64,000 bases of DNA, from contig NZ_CANMDU010000011.1 in NCBI RefSeq assembly GCF_947496775.1, forward strand, positions 1-64,000, in the 5' to 3' direction. The notes below the pieces were generated by a model, which worked only from the letters and a program-made list of their open reading frames with translations, was not told the DNA's origin and made no database searches. The number at the start of each line of letters is the position of its first letter. The stretch's first letter is position 1. Of the stretch, positions 10,671 through 19,484 are shown in pieces. A program made the translations under genes and the position numbers. The DNA comes from an uncultured Maribacter sp. Lineage in GTDB: Bacteria > Bacteroidota > Bacteroidia > Flavobacteriales > Flavobacteriaceae.

Positions 10671-11270
10671 CTACTTTTCTCTACTTTTTAAAACCTTTTC
10701 TATATCCTTTAATGTAAAACCTTTAGCTTGTAGTAGCATTAAATAATGAAATAGTAAATCTGCACTTTCATTCAAGAACAAATCATCATCATTATCTTTT
10801 GCTTCAATAACCACTTCAACAGCTTCTTCCCCTACTTTTTGCGCTAGTTTATTAATTCCTTTTTCAAACAGAGAAGCCACATAAGATTTTGTACCATCGG
10901 AGCTAGTTCTCCTCTCCTCTATGGTTTTTTCTAATTTACTTAAAAACCCAAAATTAGATATGTTTTTTTCATTCCAACAAGTATCTGTTCCTTTATGACA
11001 TGTAGGTCCTATTGGGTTTACAGAAATTAATAAAGTATCACTATCACAATCAATCTTAATATCGAGTAGGCTTAAAAAATTGCCACTTTCCTCCCCTTTG
11101 GTCCATAATCTGTTCTTAGTTCTACTATAAAAAGTTACTTTTTTAGTTTCAATTGTTTTGGTATAAGCCTCTTCATTCATATAACCCAACATTAATACAT
11201 TTTTTGTAATGGCATCCTGTATAATTGCAGGTACTAAACCGTCGTTACTTTTATTAAAATCTATATTCAT
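10671..11270 (-). CDS. hisI: Bifunctional phosphoribosyl-AMP cyclohydrolase / phosphoribosyl-ATP pyrophosphatase
   Basis: HisIE, 199 residues, catalyses steps 2 and 3 of histidine synthesis. The cyclohydrolase domain (about 1-105) has VLMLGYMNEEA, FYSRTKNRLWTKGE, the metal-binding DCDSD and CHKGTDTCW. The pyrophosphatase domain (about 112-199) has GTKSYVASLFEKG, KLAQKVGEEAVEVVIEA and ESADLLFHYLML. It is the last gene of the his operon, six bases after a GNAT gene. The length is normal for the fused enzyme. Confidence 0.96.
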   Translation of the reverse strand: MNIDFNKSNDGLVPAIIQDAITKNVLMLGYMNEEAYTKTIETKKVTFYSRTKNRLWTKGEESGNFLSLLDIKIDCDSDTLLISVNPIGPTCHKGTDTCWNEKNISNFGFLSKLEKTIEERRTSSDGTKSYVASLFEKGINKLAQKVGEEAVEVVIEAKDNDDDLFLNESADLLFHYLMLLQAKGFTLKDIEKVLKSREK

Positions 11271-11276
11271 TTTTTA

Positions 11277-11858
11277 TTAATTTAAACGAAGTAAACTTAT
11301 TGGAAAACCAAGTGTTTTTTCTTCTCTTATTATTTTAAAACCAAATTTTTGATACAACTTTATATTATACTCTGATACTGTATCTAAAACAACAGGTTTT
11401 TTATTTCTTTTGTAAGTTGTCATTACTTTTAATACCAATCTTGCCGCAGAACCACTACCATAAGCTTCTTTTAAAGCTCCCATGATTACGGGCTTTATAT
11501 GATTCTCTTCTGGATAAAACTCTTTAACTAATTTTTGTCTCTTTAACACGTTAAAAATATTTCTAATTCCGATGCATTTAAATAGCAATTGAATATCCAA
11601 AAAAATAGTTCGCAACGTAATTTTTTCTTTTTCGGAAAAAGAAAGCAATAAACATGCATTCTTATTTTGAGATAAATATACCTCTCCAAAGAGTAAAGAT
11701 TTTTCAAATAGATAACCCATAAGAGCTTTCATTCTCTCAATTCTGTTTTCATCATTTTTAACAATAAAGTTTATAGAATTATCTTCTTCTAAATCCTTAA
11801 AAGCAGAAACTAAAATTCTAACTACTAACTCTTTATGTTCTTTCGTAGCCTTAATCAA
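11277..11858 (-). CDS. GNAT-like acetyltransferase inside the his operon (third copy)
   Basis: The 193-residue product starts three bases after the hisF stop and ends six bases before hisIE. It has the overall plan of a GNAT N-acetyltransferase: a predicted strand/helix core with GALKEAYGSGSAARLVLKVM at about 128-147 as the likely acetyl-CoA helix and the NIKLYQKFGFKIIREE closing motif at about 165-180. The pyrophosphate-loop motif is looser than in the other two GNATs of the operon. The substrate is unknown; operon position suggests expression with histidine enzymes, not a proven role. Confidence 0.7.
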   Translation of the reverse strand: MIKATKEHKELVVRILVSAFKDLEEDNSINFIVKNDENRIERMKALMGYLFEKSLLFGEVYLSQNKNACLLLSFSEKEKITLRTIFLDIQLLFKCIGIRNIFNVLKRQKLVKEFYPEENHIKPVIMGALKEAYGSGSAARLVLKVMTTYKRNKKPVVLDTVSEYNIKLYQKFGFKIIREEKTLGFPISLLRLN

Positions 11859-12641: not shown

Positions 12642-13370
12642 TTAATTAGAAATAATAAAATTCTCTAGCTGCTTTAAACTTATTCTATTTTCATAAATTG
12701 CTTTTCCAATGATAGTGCCTTCACAGCCTATTTCTTTCAATTTAGGTAATTCATCGAAAGTAGAAATACCTCCACTTGCAATTAGTTTTAAACCTGGTTT
12801 AGATTGCTCTAATATTTTTTTATACAATGCAAAAGATGGACCTTCTAACATACCATCCTTACTAATATCTGTACATATTACATAACTTATGCCTGCTTTT
12901 TGATATTCCTGTATAAAAGGCACTAATTCTTCTTTAGATTCTTCTAACCAACCAGAAACGGCAACTTTTTCATCCATGGCATCTGCCCCAAGAATAATTT
13001 TATTTGCTCCGTATGTGGAAATCCATTGGGTAAATGTTTTGGTATCCTTCACAGCAATGCTTCCTCCTGTTATTTGATTAGCACCACTCTCAAATGCTAT
13101 GCGCAAATCATCATCGGTCTTTAAACCACCTCCAAAATCAATTTTTAGTCTTGTTTTAGATGCAATTTGATCTAAAATCTTATGGTTTACAATATGCTTA
13201 GACTTTGCACCATCTAAATCTACTAAATGCAAGTACTCTATTCCGTGTGCCTCAAATTCTTTAGCTACCTCTAAAGGGTTTTCATTATATACTTTTTTTG
13301 TATTATAATCCCCTTTAGAAAGGCGTACACATTGCCCTTCTATAATATCTATTGCCGGTATTATTCTCAT
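12642..13370 (-). CDS. hisA: ProFAR isomerase HisA
   Basis: HisA isomerises ProFAR to PRFAR. The 242-residue barrel starts [22 protein letters not shown] with the catalytic Asp at 8, has [28 protein letters not shown] with the second catalytic Asp, and [14 protein letters not shown] phosphate loops. Its ATG overlaps the stop of the upstream GNAT gene by four bases. Confidence 0.97.
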
Positions 13371-13795
13371 TCTAAATTTTGTTTATCCATGGACATCCAT
13401 AACGGAGAGTCTCCTATTGTTTTAAATCCATATTTAATATAAAGCTCTTGCGCATCTTTAGTTTTTAGAGCTACAGTGCTTAAATTTTTAATTATTTTAT
13501 TATTAAGTATGAAAGAAATTAACCGTTTTCCAATACCTTTTCTTTGATATTTTTCATCAATAATAACATCCATAATGTATCCAAAAAAAGTATAATCGGT
13601 AACTACTCTGGCAAAACCGATTTGAACTTTTTCATCTGTATATACCCCAAAACATAATGAATTTTCTATTGTGCTTTTTACCTCTTCCAAAGTTCTTCCT
13701 TTTCCCCAATAAGAAATTGCACTTATATAATTATGAATGAAATGTACATTCAATAATTCTTTGTTAGTAGATATATTATAGGATATTATACTCAT
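13367..13795 (-). CDS. GNAT acetyltransferase inside the his operon (second copy)
   Basis: A 142-residue GNAT protein. The acetyl-CoA pyrophosphate loop is clear in [20 protein letters not shown] (Q/R-x-x-G-x-G type), and [10 protein letters not shown] is the usual end motif. The start shares one base with the hisH stop (TAATG) and the stop overlaps the hisA start by four bases, so it is locked into the translation of the operon. The compact form resembles small-molecule or aminoglycoside-type N-acetyltransferases; the substrate is unknown. Confidence 0.85.
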
Positions 13796-16643: not shown

Positions 16644-17927
16644 CTATTCTAAACTTTTTAAACGTAATGTTACAGCATTTTTATGTGCCTGTAACCCTTC
16701 TGCTTCTGCCATTAATTCAATAGCCTTTCCTATTTCTTTAATACCATTAGATGATATTTTTTGAAAAGTCATGCTTTTCATAAAACTATCTAAATTTACA
16801 CCACTATATTGTTTGGCATAACCGTTAGTAGGTAATGTATGGTTTGTTCCAGATGCATAATCGCCAGCACTTTCTGGAGTATAATTACCAATGAATACAG
16901 AACCTGCATTCTTAATTTGATTTAAAAATATATCTTCATTAGAAACACATAGAATATAATGTTCCGGACCATATTCATTGATTAAATCTATTGCAGTTTG
17001 GTTTTCTTCTACAAAAATTAATTTACTATTAGCAATAGCTTTTTCTGCAATATCCCTTCGTGGTAAATTCTTAATCTGCTTTGTTATTTCACTCTCTACT
17101 TTTAATATAAACTCTTTAGAAGTAGAAACTAAAATTACTTGACTATCTACACCATGTTCTGCCTGACTCAATAAATCTGATGCTACAAATGCAGCATTTG
17201 CAGAATCGTCTGCCATTACTAAAAGTTCACTAGGACCAGCAGGCATATCTATAGCTACCCCATGTTTAGTAGCTATTTGCTTTGCTACAGTTACATATTG
17301 ATTTCCCGGTCCAAATATTTTGTACACTTGCGGAATCGTTTCTGTTCCAAAAGTCATCCCTGCAATAGCCTGAATACCACCTACTTTAAAAACTTTTGTA
17401 ACACCACATAAATTTGCTGTATATAAAATTGCTGGGTTTACCTTACCTTCTTTATCTGGCGGTGTGCATAATATTACTTCTTCGCAACCCGCAATATTCG
17501 CTGGTATTGCTAACATTAAAATTGTAGAAAATAAGGGTGCTGTTCCTCCGGGAATGTACAAACCAACTTTTTGTATAGGTCGCTTTTCTTGCCAACATTG
17601 TACACCATTTGTAGTCTCTACTTCTACTCTACTAGTTTTTTGAGCTGCATGAAAAACCTCTATATTGGTTTTTGCTAATTGAATGGCTTTTTTTAAATCT
17701 TCAGGGATAGATGCTATAGCCGAAGAAATTTCTTCTTGAGATACTATATTAGAATTTAAATCTACACCATCAAACTTTTGGGTGTATTTGGCTAAAATAG
17801 CATCACCACCCTTTTGCACTTCCCCAAAAATACTATTTACAGTACCTTCTATATCTGCCACCGTTTGTGTTGGTCGCATTAGAATGGTTTTCCAATCTTT
17901 ATTATTTGGATTATATATTTTATTCAT
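16644..17927 (-). CDS. hisD: Histidinol dehydrogenase
   Basis: HisD oxidises L-histidinol to histidine in two NAD steps. The protein has 427 residues from the ATG at 17927 (MNKIYNPNNKDW), which overlaps the preceding GNAT stop by eight bases; a start four codons earlier is possible. Seen: GLYIPGGTAPLFSTILMLAIPA, GVTKVFKVGGIQAIAGMTFGTE, FGPGNQYVTVAK, DMPAGPSELLV, DLLSQAEHGVDSQ and NEYGPEHYIL, containing the Zn and catalytic His/Glu residues. Confidence 0.97.
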   Translation of the reverse strand: MNKIYNPNNKDWKTILMRPTQTVADIEGTVNSIFGEVQKGGDAILAKYTQKFDGVDLNSNIVSQEEISSAIASIPEDLKKAIQLAKTNIEVFHAAQKTSRVEVETTNGVQCWQEKRPIQKVGLYIPGGTAPLFSTILMLAIPANIAGCEEVILCTPPDKEGKVNPAILYTANLCGVTKVFKVGGIQAIAGMTFGTETIPQVYKIFGPGNQYVTVAKQIATKHGVAIDMPAGPSELLVMADDSANAAFVASDLLSQAEHGVDSQVILVSTSKEFILKVESEITKQIKNLPRRDIAEKAIANSKLIFVEENQTAIDLINEYGPEHYILCVSNEDIFLNQIKNAGSVFIGNYTPESAGDYASGTNHTLPTNGYAKQYSGVNLDSFMKSMTFQKISSNGIKEIGKAIELMAEAEGLQAHKNAVTLRLKSLE

Positions 17928-18366
17928 TTTTCCTATCAAAAACGTTTCTCATATGGTATCCTTCTGCAACATACCCTTGGTCTTCCCAAAATTGAATACC
18001 TCTTTTATTATCAACATAACAGTTTATTTCACTACTATTACATCCTATGTCCTTAGCATGGTTTGCTATCCAATCTAACATTAATTTGCCTACTCCCATA
18101 CTACGATATTCTTTACTAATAAAAACATTATCTGCCTCTATATGTTTACCTACATAAAACTTATTAAGAATCCAAAAACCACAAATACCAATCAACTTAC
18201 AACCATCATAAACGCCAATACATTGGTAGTTTAACTTAATCATTTCGGATAGCCTTTCTTTTAAAGTAACTTCTGAAACTTTACCATTATTCAGCAGAAA
18301 TATCATTGGAATTATCGTATCCAATTCATTTTCGGGAATTACTATAATTCTTAAATTCTTTTCCAT
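17920..18366 (-). CDS. GNAT acetyltransferase inside the his operon (first copy)
   Basis: I chose the ATG at 18366 (MEKNLRIIVIPEN), 13 bases after hisG; an in-frame ATG at 18399 would overlap hisG. The 148-residue protein has the acetyl-CoA loop VFISKEYRSMGVGKLMLDWI and the end motif GIQFWEDQGYVAEGYHMRN. Its stop overlaps the hisD start by eight bases. It is a different GNAT from the two further down the operon by eye. The substrate is unknown. Confidence 0.85.
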   Translation of the reverse strand: MEKNLRIIVIPENELDTIIPMIFLLNNGKVSEVTLKERLSEMIKLNYQCIGVYDGCKLIGICGFWILNKFYVGKHIEADNVFISKEYRSMGVGKLMLDWIANHAKDIGCNSSEINCYVDNKRGIQFWEDQGYVAEGYHMRNVFDRKNE

Positions 18367-18379
18367 AGTCCATAAAAAA

Positions 18380-19237
18380 CTATAAGACCATTTTTTCAAT
18401 AGGGCAAACTAATAAACCTTCTGCACCCGCTTGTTTAAGCTCGTCTATAACTTCCCAAAACTTATTTTTATTAATTACAGTATGTACAGAACTCCATCCT
18501 TCTTCCGCTAATGGCAGTACCGTAGGACTTCGCATACCAGGTAATAAAGATATAATTTCTTCTAGTTTTTCATTAGGAGCATTTAAAAGAACATATTTAG
18601 ACTGCCTTGCTGTTAATACGGCCTGTATTCTGAATTGTAATTTTTTAAGTATTTCTTTGCGTTCTTCAGAAATTTTAGGAGATACAGCCAATACAGCTTC
18701 ACTCTTTAACATAACCTCCACTTCTTTTAAGCCATTTTTAAACAAAGTACTACCACTAGAAACAATGTCACAAATACCATCTGCCAAACCTATATTTGGA
18801 GCAATTTCTACAGAACCATTAATTATATGAATATCTGCCTGAACTCCTTTTTCTTTTAAATACCCTTTAACAGTATTTGGATAAGAGGTTGCTATGCGTT
18901 TTCCTTCAAAATAATTTACAGATGTATATTCCACATCTTTGGGTACGGCCAAAGAAACTTTACATGTAGAAAAACCTAGTTTTACGTCAAAACCTATTCC
19001 TTCTCCTTTTTCAATTAGTACATTTTCTCCAATAATAGCTATATCTACAACACCATCTTTTAGGTATTGCGGAATGTCTCCATTTCTCAAATAAAATACT
19101 TCCATTGGAAAATTCCTAGCAGAAGCTTTTAATTGGTCTTTTCCGTTATCAATTGATATTCCGCAATTTTTTAATATCTCAATGGAATCTTGATTAAGAC
19201 GCCCGGACTTCTGAATTGCAATTCTAATTTTAGTCAT
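18380..19237 (-). CDS. hisG: ATP phosphoribosyltransferase, long form
   Basis: HisG catalyses the first, committed step (ATP + PRPP to PR-ATP). At 285 residues it is the long form, with a C-terminal ACT-like regulatory domain (about 215-285, including LLPGMRSPTVLPLAEEGW and AEGLLVCPIEKM), so it should be histidine-inhibited and need no HisZ. Seen: IAIQKSGRL, ATSYPNTVKGYLKEKG, GSVEIAPNIGLADGICDIVSSGSTLFKNGL, the PRPP-binding region. It is the first structural gene, about 100 bases after the leader peptide. Confidence 0.97.
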   Translation of the reverse strand: MTKIRIAIQKSGRLNQDSIEILKNCGISIDNGKDQLKASARNFPMEVFYLRNGDIPQYLKDGVVDIAIIGENVLIEKGEGIGFDVKLGFSTCKVSLAVPKDVEYTSVNYFEGKRIATSYPNTVKGYLKEKGVQADIHIINGSVEIAPNIGLADGICDIVSSGSTLFKNGLKEVEVMLKSEAVLAVSPKISEERKEILKKLQFRIQAVLTARQSKYVLLNAPNEKLEEIISLLPGMRSPTVLPLAEEGWSSVHTVINKNKFWEVIDELKQAGAEGLLVCPIEKMVL

Positions 19238-19269: not shown

Positions 19270-19308
19270 GATTTAAAAACAAAACCCGCTTGATTTCTCA
19301 AACGGGTT
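19270..19308 (-). terminator. his operon attenuator (terminator hairpin with T-run)
   Basis: On the minus strand AACCCGTTTGA (19308-19298) pairs with TCAAGCGGGTT (19293-19283) around a GAAA loop, followed by TTGTTTTT. It lies between the leader peptide and hisG. The leader's own segment at 19349-19339 (TCAAGCGAGGT) can pair instead with ACCCGTTTGA, giving an antiterminator. A second alternative, GAAATCAA with TTGATTTC, lies next to the hisG start. Confidence 0.9.
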
Positions 19309-19336
19309 ATATATATTTAGTTTACACAATACATTA

Positions 19337-19390
19337 TCACCTCGCTTGAAAGCCAGTATGAAAATGATGATGTGTATTTGTATTCCTCAT
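19337..19390 (-). CDS. hisL: his operon leader peptide
   Basis: The minus-strand ORF ATG...TGA encodes MRNTNTHHHFHTGFQAR: four His codons in five positions, all CAT. A run of codons for the operon's product just ahead of a terminator is the mark of a ribosome-stalling attenuator. When charged tRNA-His is scarce the ribosome should stop at the His run, leaving 19339-19349 free to form the antiterminator. When it is plentiful the ribosome covers that segment and the terminator forms. A promoter-like TACTTTTA lies about 10 bases upstream of the ATG. Confidence 0.88.
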   Translation of the reverse strand: MRNTNTHHHFHTGFQAR

Positions 19391-19484
19391 GATAGTGTAA
19401 AAGTAAAATTTATTTTAATCTGAAAAAATTAAAAATCATTTTTTTAACAACTATTAGCTTTTTCTTAATAAAACTAACAGTAAA

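Follow-up and report, generated by a model that had tools for sequence, protein, structure and literature searches.

A histidine leader peptide and a candidate ribosome-mediated attenuator upstream of hisG in Maribacter, conserved across the Flavobacteriaceae

Does the short, histidine-rich reading frame upstream of hisG in a Maribacter genome belong to a transcription attenuator, and if so, which segments of the leader RNA make up the switch? The window analyzed here comprises 64,000 nt from an uncultured Maribacter sp. (GCF_947496775.1, contig NZ_CANMDU010000011.1, positions 1-64,000 of the forward strand). An earlier note, made from the sequence alone, had described a ribosome-stalling switch with only three segments at this locus and had implied that such leaders are rare outside Proteobacteria. 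We find that transcription of the his operon is very probably controlled at this locus by a ribosome-mediated attenuator, which would be set by the supply of histidyl-tRNA. An ORF with codons for the end product of the pathway, an intrinsic terminator and an antiterminator that excludes it are all present, and switching between the two stems by ribosome position is found in folding models.

Results

A histidine leader ORF and a terminator precede the his operon

On the minus strand, the putative promoter element TACTTTTA is followed by the leader ORF MRNTNTHHHFHTGFQAR, an AT-rich stretch, the terminator, its T-run and hisG (Table 1), with the leader ATG located 153 nt upstream of the hisG start. 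Both the four CAT codons and the terminator with its GAAA loop and T-run are as the earlier note had described them. Folding of the 132-nt stretch 19391-19260 gave a z-score of -5.2, and none of 200 shuffled versions was equally stable. We scored an ORF as a His leader if it contained three His codons within seven, had at most 60 codons and lay within 420 nt upstream of hisG. Fifteen ORFs on the two strands of the whole 64-kb window show this pattern, and thus the criterion alone is not rare; the evidence lies in conservation at hisG, not in the ORF itself.

Table 1. Features of the his leader region, listed in minus-strand order
Feature	Positions	Strand	Basis and remarks
Predicted -7 promoter element, TACTTTTA	19398..19405	minus	Bacteroidota TAnnTTTG type, final base A for G
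Leader ORF, MRNTNTHHHFHTGFQAR	19337..19390	minus	ATG at 19390, stop TGA 19339-19337; sequence and family comparison
Segment a (codons 3-7), potential partner of d in the termination state (outer clamp)	19370..19384	minus	Duplex energies, folding
His codons 7, 8, 9, 11 (CAT CAT CAT TTT CAT), presumed stalling site	19358..19372	minus	Sequence
Segment b (CTGGC), can pair with GCGAG of c	19352..19356	minus	Covariation; one G-G mismatch in the window
Segment c (TTTCAAGCGAGGT), competing segment, antiterminator 5' half	19339..19351	minus	Covariation, duplex energies, folding
Segment d (ATGTATTGTGT), potential partner of a (termination) or e (within antiterminator loop)	19324..19334	minus	Duplex energies, folding
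Segment e, partner of d in modelled antitermination state	19311..19317	minus	Model; without covariation support
Terminator, AACCCGTTTGA-GAAA-TCAAGCGGGTT, then TTGTTTTT	19308-19283	minus	11 pairs, one G-U
Segment f, terminator 5' arm, also used by antiterminator	19298..19308	minus	Terminator scan, covariation
Terminator loop, 3' arm g (19293-19283), T-run	19275..19297	minus	Sequence, terminator scan, covariation
hisG, first gene of operon	18380..19237	minus	Pfam

The operon reads hisG-GNAT-hisD-hisC-hisB-hisH-GNAT-hisA-hisF-(orf)-hisIE. Pfam searches with ten proteins returned HisG, GNAT, histidinol dehydrogenase, aminotransferase, IGPD, glutamine amidotransferase, a second GNAT and two His_biosynth matches, with no match for the tenth; gene order and ORF sequence, not a family-specific model, served to identify hisIE (10671-11270) and to give hisC, hisH, hisA and hisF their exact names. 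Among the matches listed, the nearest named relative by HisG is a Maribacter with 94% identity, and the genome of origin may lie outside these matches. The two GNAT acetyltransferase genes inside the operon (minus strand, by Pfam) are located at 17920-18399, after hisG, and at 13367-13795, after hisH. In 33 of 80 named relatives, a homologue of the first one separates hisG from hisD; elsewhere hisD mostly lies close behind hisG. A 193-residue ORF between hisF and hisIE (11277-11858, minus strand) has no Pfam match at E<=0.001 and appears acetyltransferase-like by eye only.

The promoter element predicts a transcript start at about 19393, which would leave a 5' UTR of 3 nt in the window. A published study places the -7 element at -12 to -5 (PMC9723704), and the predicted 5' UTR would thus be 3-4 nt. 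A TAnnTTT[GA] element ending 3-11 nt before the leader ATG is found in 73 of 79 named relatives, at a spacing of either 7 nt (60 cases) or 8 nt (13 cases), and in 37 of 118 Flavobacteriaceae genera (shuffled, 0.048 and 0.042, respectively). With 37 of 118 genera only, we rejected a near-leaderless promoter as a family-wide rule. The remaining 81 genera mostly carry, as judged by eye, a TTTG element some 15-20 nt upstream.

The His leader is conserved in the family and recurs in the phylum

HisG was detected in 123 of 149 Flavobacteriaceae genomes, sampled at one per genus. We examined the regions upstream of hisG in all 123 genera and in 80 named relatives. A His-rich leader ORF is present in 118 of the 123 genera and in 79 of the 80 relatives; the same criterion was passed by 3 of 123 regions on the reverse strand, and ten shuffling rounds gave 0-7 of 123. 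The His codons are thus conserved in relatives, a check that the earlier note had named. Four of the five genera without a hit (L015, L176, L187, L201) have a two-His leader with a terminator of the same kind, and in the fifth (L147) the upstream region is ended by the contig end. In the one negative named relative (L046), Tyr stands in place of one His codon. Codon 7 is the first to encode His in 104 of the 118 genera; in the remaining 14, this is codon 5, 6 or 8. A terminator-like hairpin lies 3' of the leader in all 197 cases scanned (118 from the family, 79 named relatives); the scan output was listed for the 118 family leaders only, and the finder picked another hairpin in L186 and L202.

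Of 129 genomes of the class Bacteroidia, 62 yielded a HisG, and 51 of the 60 newly read genomes, representing 28 of 33 families, have a His-rich leader. A search of the phylum located HisG in 103 of 118 genomes, 78 of which lie outside the Bacteroidia. We read 26 of these 78, and 17 contain a His-rich ORF. In one family outside the class (f64), leader and terminator are both present in seven of seven genomes read. Judged by sequence, the his attenuator is thus near-universal in Flavobacteriaceae and common in Bacteroidia, an ordinary setting for the phylum. In other families, different bases re-create the pairing of the leader with the terminator 5' arm: 17 of the 33 families outperform 95% of mononucleotide shuffles and 16 do not. 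Only 7 of 33 families beat 95% of between-family swaps, with a median of 20% of swaps pairing equally well; this swap test is weak because GGCTTACC is common to many terminators. In the order, R1, an RNA model built from the 115-leader alignment described below, found matches at E<=0.01 under strict filters in 39 of 99 genomes, counted with or without hisG.

A second family outside the class (f71) has long His-rich ORFs before hisG in seven of seven genomes read (L296, L297, L299, L300, L302, L303, L305), which lack a good intrinsic terminator. A different mode of control is thus possible there.

Terminator and antiterminator are mutually exclusive and both conserved

We aligned 115 of the 118 Flavobacteriaceae leaders, one per genus, leaving out L155, L186 and L202 because the terminator finder or the leader layout differed. 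Segment c resembles the terminator 3' arm g and extends into the stop codon, as had been noted before. In the folding model, TTTCAAGCG (19351-19343) and GGT (19341-19339), the T of which is the first base of the stop codon, pair with 19307-19296, close to where the earlier note had placed the competing pairing. The modelled antiterminator in the window contains 12 pairs and one bulged A and encloses the d:e hairpin.

Both stems carry compensatory changes, the second check that the earlier note had named. The terminator f:g is paired in 99.7% of the cells of the alignment, with double changes in 7 of its 11 pairs (32 cells, compared with 3.1 after shuffling). The antiterminator c:f is paired in 96.2% of cells, against 18.5-48.5% when slid by 1-3 columns, and contains 12 double-change cells, compared with 3.5 after shuffling; two of the five measures (pairs and types with changes) were matched by 16 and 21 of 500 shuffles. 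Our shuffles preserve columns but not relatedness, and these and the following covariation counts are therefore not readable as probabilities. When 25 swapped partners were substituted, the native c:f duplex proved more stable than their mean in 88 of 115 genera. Nine of 115 genera have TCT for TTT in f, and in all nine a G is found opposite in c. In L133, all three segments are altered together, with CATCTGA in f, TCAGATG in g and TCAGGTG in c. Four genera (L006, L152, L156, L186) have an in-frame stop codon within c and keep the c:f pairing, indicating that c is maintained as RNA and not as peptide. Terminator and antiterminator are mutually exclusive, and both are conserved with compensatory changes.

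Two further stems may sequester segment c

Segment c can also pair within the leader. The b:c hairpin is paired in 83.1% of cells and has 33 double-change cells, compared with 11.4 after shuffling (115 genera); these are mostly T-A to C-G changes at columns 47:62, and the number of pairs with double changes, two, is not above shuffles. At the family level, alignment and folding models together argue that the leader hairpin b:c sequesters the competing segment c.

The clamp a:d, which would connect codons 3-7 to RNA after the stop codon, probably sequesters c as well. In re-gapped rows, 72.3% of its cells are paired, compared with 68.7% after shuffling, and double changes are found in 71 cells, compared with 44.1; none of 500 shuffles reached either value. 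Two remaining measures were matched by 68 and 211 of 500 shuffles, and slid versions are 28-47% paired. The mean duplex energy is -10.9 kcal/mol with the own partner, -8.4 kcal/mol with swapped partners and -4.9 kcal/mol after shuffling, with the own partner beating the swapped mean in 91 of 115 genera. In the window, the a:d duplex has an energy of -9.0 kcal/mol.

We rejected d:e as a conserved structure: it is paired in 83.6% of cells, yet 50 of 500 shuffles match it on the cells measure and 236 of 500 on the pairs measure. The energy signal of the region from the stop codon to f is weak, with a mean z of -1.18 and 22 of 115 genera in the lowest 5%. The stem is retained solely as a component of the model.

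Ribosome position is predicted to select between the stems

We folded the leader with a ribosome placed on it, using an assumed, not fitted, footprint. For a window transcript ending half-way through g, the predicted probability of the antiterminator is 0.96-0.97 with the ribosome at His7-9, 0.39 at His11 and 0.00 at the stop codon. When untranslated, it is 0.06 with 6 nt of g and 0.75 with 5 nt, and reaches 0.88 for a transcript ending after f and the loop. In the model, the untranslated state of the window is thus near balance. The terminator wins on the full-length window RNA in folding, whatever the ribosome state, and the switch must thus act kinetically, during transcription.

A similar pattern is predicted for the 115 genera. 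With the ribosome on the first His codon, f pairs with upstream RNA at P > 0.5 in 104 of 115 genera, the other 11 not exceeding this value; the count is 108 with the ribosome on the second His codon, 6 with the ribosome at the stop codon and 23 for the untranslated leader. Shuffling the leader-to-f region gave corresponding counts of 62, 58, 64 and 82 of 345. The ranking of the stalled, stop and untranslated states is the same at all four transcript ends modelled: with 4, 5, 6 and 7 nt of g, f is paired upstream in 115, 113, 109 and 90 of 115 genera when the ribosome is stalled, in 30, 18, 7 and 2 when it is at the stop codon and in 56, 45, 19 and 4 when the leader is untranslated. Dinucleotide-shuffled sequences at 5 nt into g gave 87, 80 and 103 of 230 for the three states. 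Shuffling codons 2-6 raised upstream pairing in the untranslated state from 0.22 to 0.49, and 105 of 115 genera showed such a rise. The value increased from 0.22 to 0.53 when b, set here to five bases at a constant distance 5' of the stop codon, was held open.

Discussion

We propose that the leader peptide is translated close behind RNA polymerase on a nearly leaderless transcript. If histidyl-tRNA is short, the ribosome would stall at the His codons and cover a, leaving c free to pair with f before g is made, and transcription would continue into hisG. With enough histidine, the ribosome would reach the stop codon and block c, since this codon lies at the end of c, and f:g would terminate transcription. 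In an untranslated leader, b:c and probably a:d would hold c, so that f:g would tend to form there too.

It may be argued that only c, f and g matter and that an untranslated leader reads through, as the three-segment reading has it. These three are the best supported segments, b is mismatched in the window, and at two of the transcript ends modelled the untranslated window RNA favours the antiterminator. For the window alone, where the modelled balance is nearly even, such a reading may hold. At the family level, it is at odds with the b:c pairing and its double changes, with the preference of a for its own partner d and with the increase in upstream pairing seen in most genera when codons 2-6 are shuffled. 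We thus consider a switch of this kind unlikely; the stalling switch claimed in the earlier note agrees with our models, and its restriction to three segments does not hold across the family.

Neither of two readings that dispense with stalling fits the comparative data well. The strong structure of the leader RNA could suggest a riboswitch or a T-box-like RNA that senses without translation, the ORF being incidental; against it, the His run is kept while neighbouring codons vary, the window has no Rfam family at cut-off, and Trp- and Phe-rich leaders with terminators occur at two other loci of the same genome, making this very improbable. The least probable reading in our view is that the ORF encodes a functional small peptide and that the terminator merely ends the transcript of the upstream gene. 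A HHHHFHTCTQAS-like pattern is indeed conserved within the family, but the peptide ends early inside c in four genera that keep the RNA pairing, leaders diverge widely between families while the His run is kept, and the leader is separated from the upstream gene by a promoter-like element. A ribosome-mediated attenuator accounts for these observations best.

We compared the leader to known systems. In the window, all Rfam families stayed below their cut-offs. RF00514 His_leader, the histidine operon leader of proteobacterial scope, ranked first among 24 sub-threshold matches (31.5 bits against a cut-off of 49; E 0.0013, 241 bases), and 20 relatives, which make up a larger search space, gave no match to it at E<=0.05. 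The Maribacter leader shares with it a leader ORF with a His-codon run, competing stems and a terminator before hisG; we rejected membership on score. The Salmonella and E. coli his leader consists of segments A-F, with its antiterminator stems arranged one after another, whereas c:f in Maribacter spans d. In the enterobacterial trp attenuator, stems 1:2, 2:3 and 3:4 correspond to b:c, c:f and f:g. The his leader described here adds the outer clamp a:d, which is supported rather than proven, and a very short 5' UTR predicted in the clade of the window.

A comparative study of attenuation (Lopatovskaya, 2010) may contain earlier predictions for the phylum. Our search of the open-licence PMC literature returned no detailed description of such a hisG attenuator. 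The accessible part of a 2021 study of F. psychrophilum reports that hisG is preceded by a structured 5' element, which is conserved in further genera and has no Rfam hits, and separately mentions clues for leader-peptide attenuation upstream of amino acid operons (PMC9723704). This element belongs to the same gene and the same family as the leader in the window, and the account of it, as far as accessible, contains no leader sequence, segments or covariation. In the accessible part of a paper on his genes across the superphylum, attenuation is named once, for enterobacteria (PMC8305728). The mechanism is thus known and the element has been partly noticed. Together with its distribution over Flavobacteriaceae genera and Bacteroidia genomes, this contradicts the implied rarity outside Proteobacteria and corrects the idea of such leaders as mainly proteobacterial. 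What emerges is a defined RNA family that predicts control of histidine synthesis in most flavobacteria with hisG.

These bacteria largely lack Shine-Dalgarno signals. His leader-peptide attenuation could be ancestral in Bacteroidia, a suggestion that we put forward tentatively and at somewhat less than even confidence. Its distinct layout would comprise a clamp from the first codons to RNA past the stop codon, an antiterminator spanning a hairpin and, in the clade of the window, a 5' UTR of 3-4 nt at a fixed spacing that would let a ribosome load once the 5' end emerges. If the system is indeed ancestral and has been kept across the class, this would mean tight coupling of transcription and translation in these organisms. 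A leader peptide can bring about attenuation only if a ribosome follows RNA polymerase closely, and the conserved switch thus makes the question of coupling in Bacteroidota a reporter experiment.

We also inspected the genome of origin for related leaders. Further members of an R1 regulon were rejected: among ten matches at E<=10, only the one at his is strong (109.6 bits), and of the others we read the next three (34.6-36.5 bits), which resemble ordinary gene ends. No convincing Leu/Ile or Thr leader emerged when the surroundings of the LeuA and homoserine dehydrogenase genes were scanned crudely. At C10:42440-42556 (L233), a Trp leader, MKNKGTNTWWWNNLRKTT, and a terminator precede a trpE-like ORF, as judged by eye. 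It scores 44.2 bits against Bacteroid-trp RF01692, below the 49-bit cut-off; this motif, listed as a Bacteroidetes cis-regulatory element in PMC2864571, concerns another amino acid and another sequence than the his leader. The predicted promoter of the Trp leader, TATATTTG followed by 7 nt, has the same near-leaderless spacing as that of the his leader. On contig C9 (L314, position 1224), a Phe-rich leader, MTKQYFWNGFTFYFFFKRSAELF, is followed by a terminator and lies directly before the prephenate dehydratase gene.
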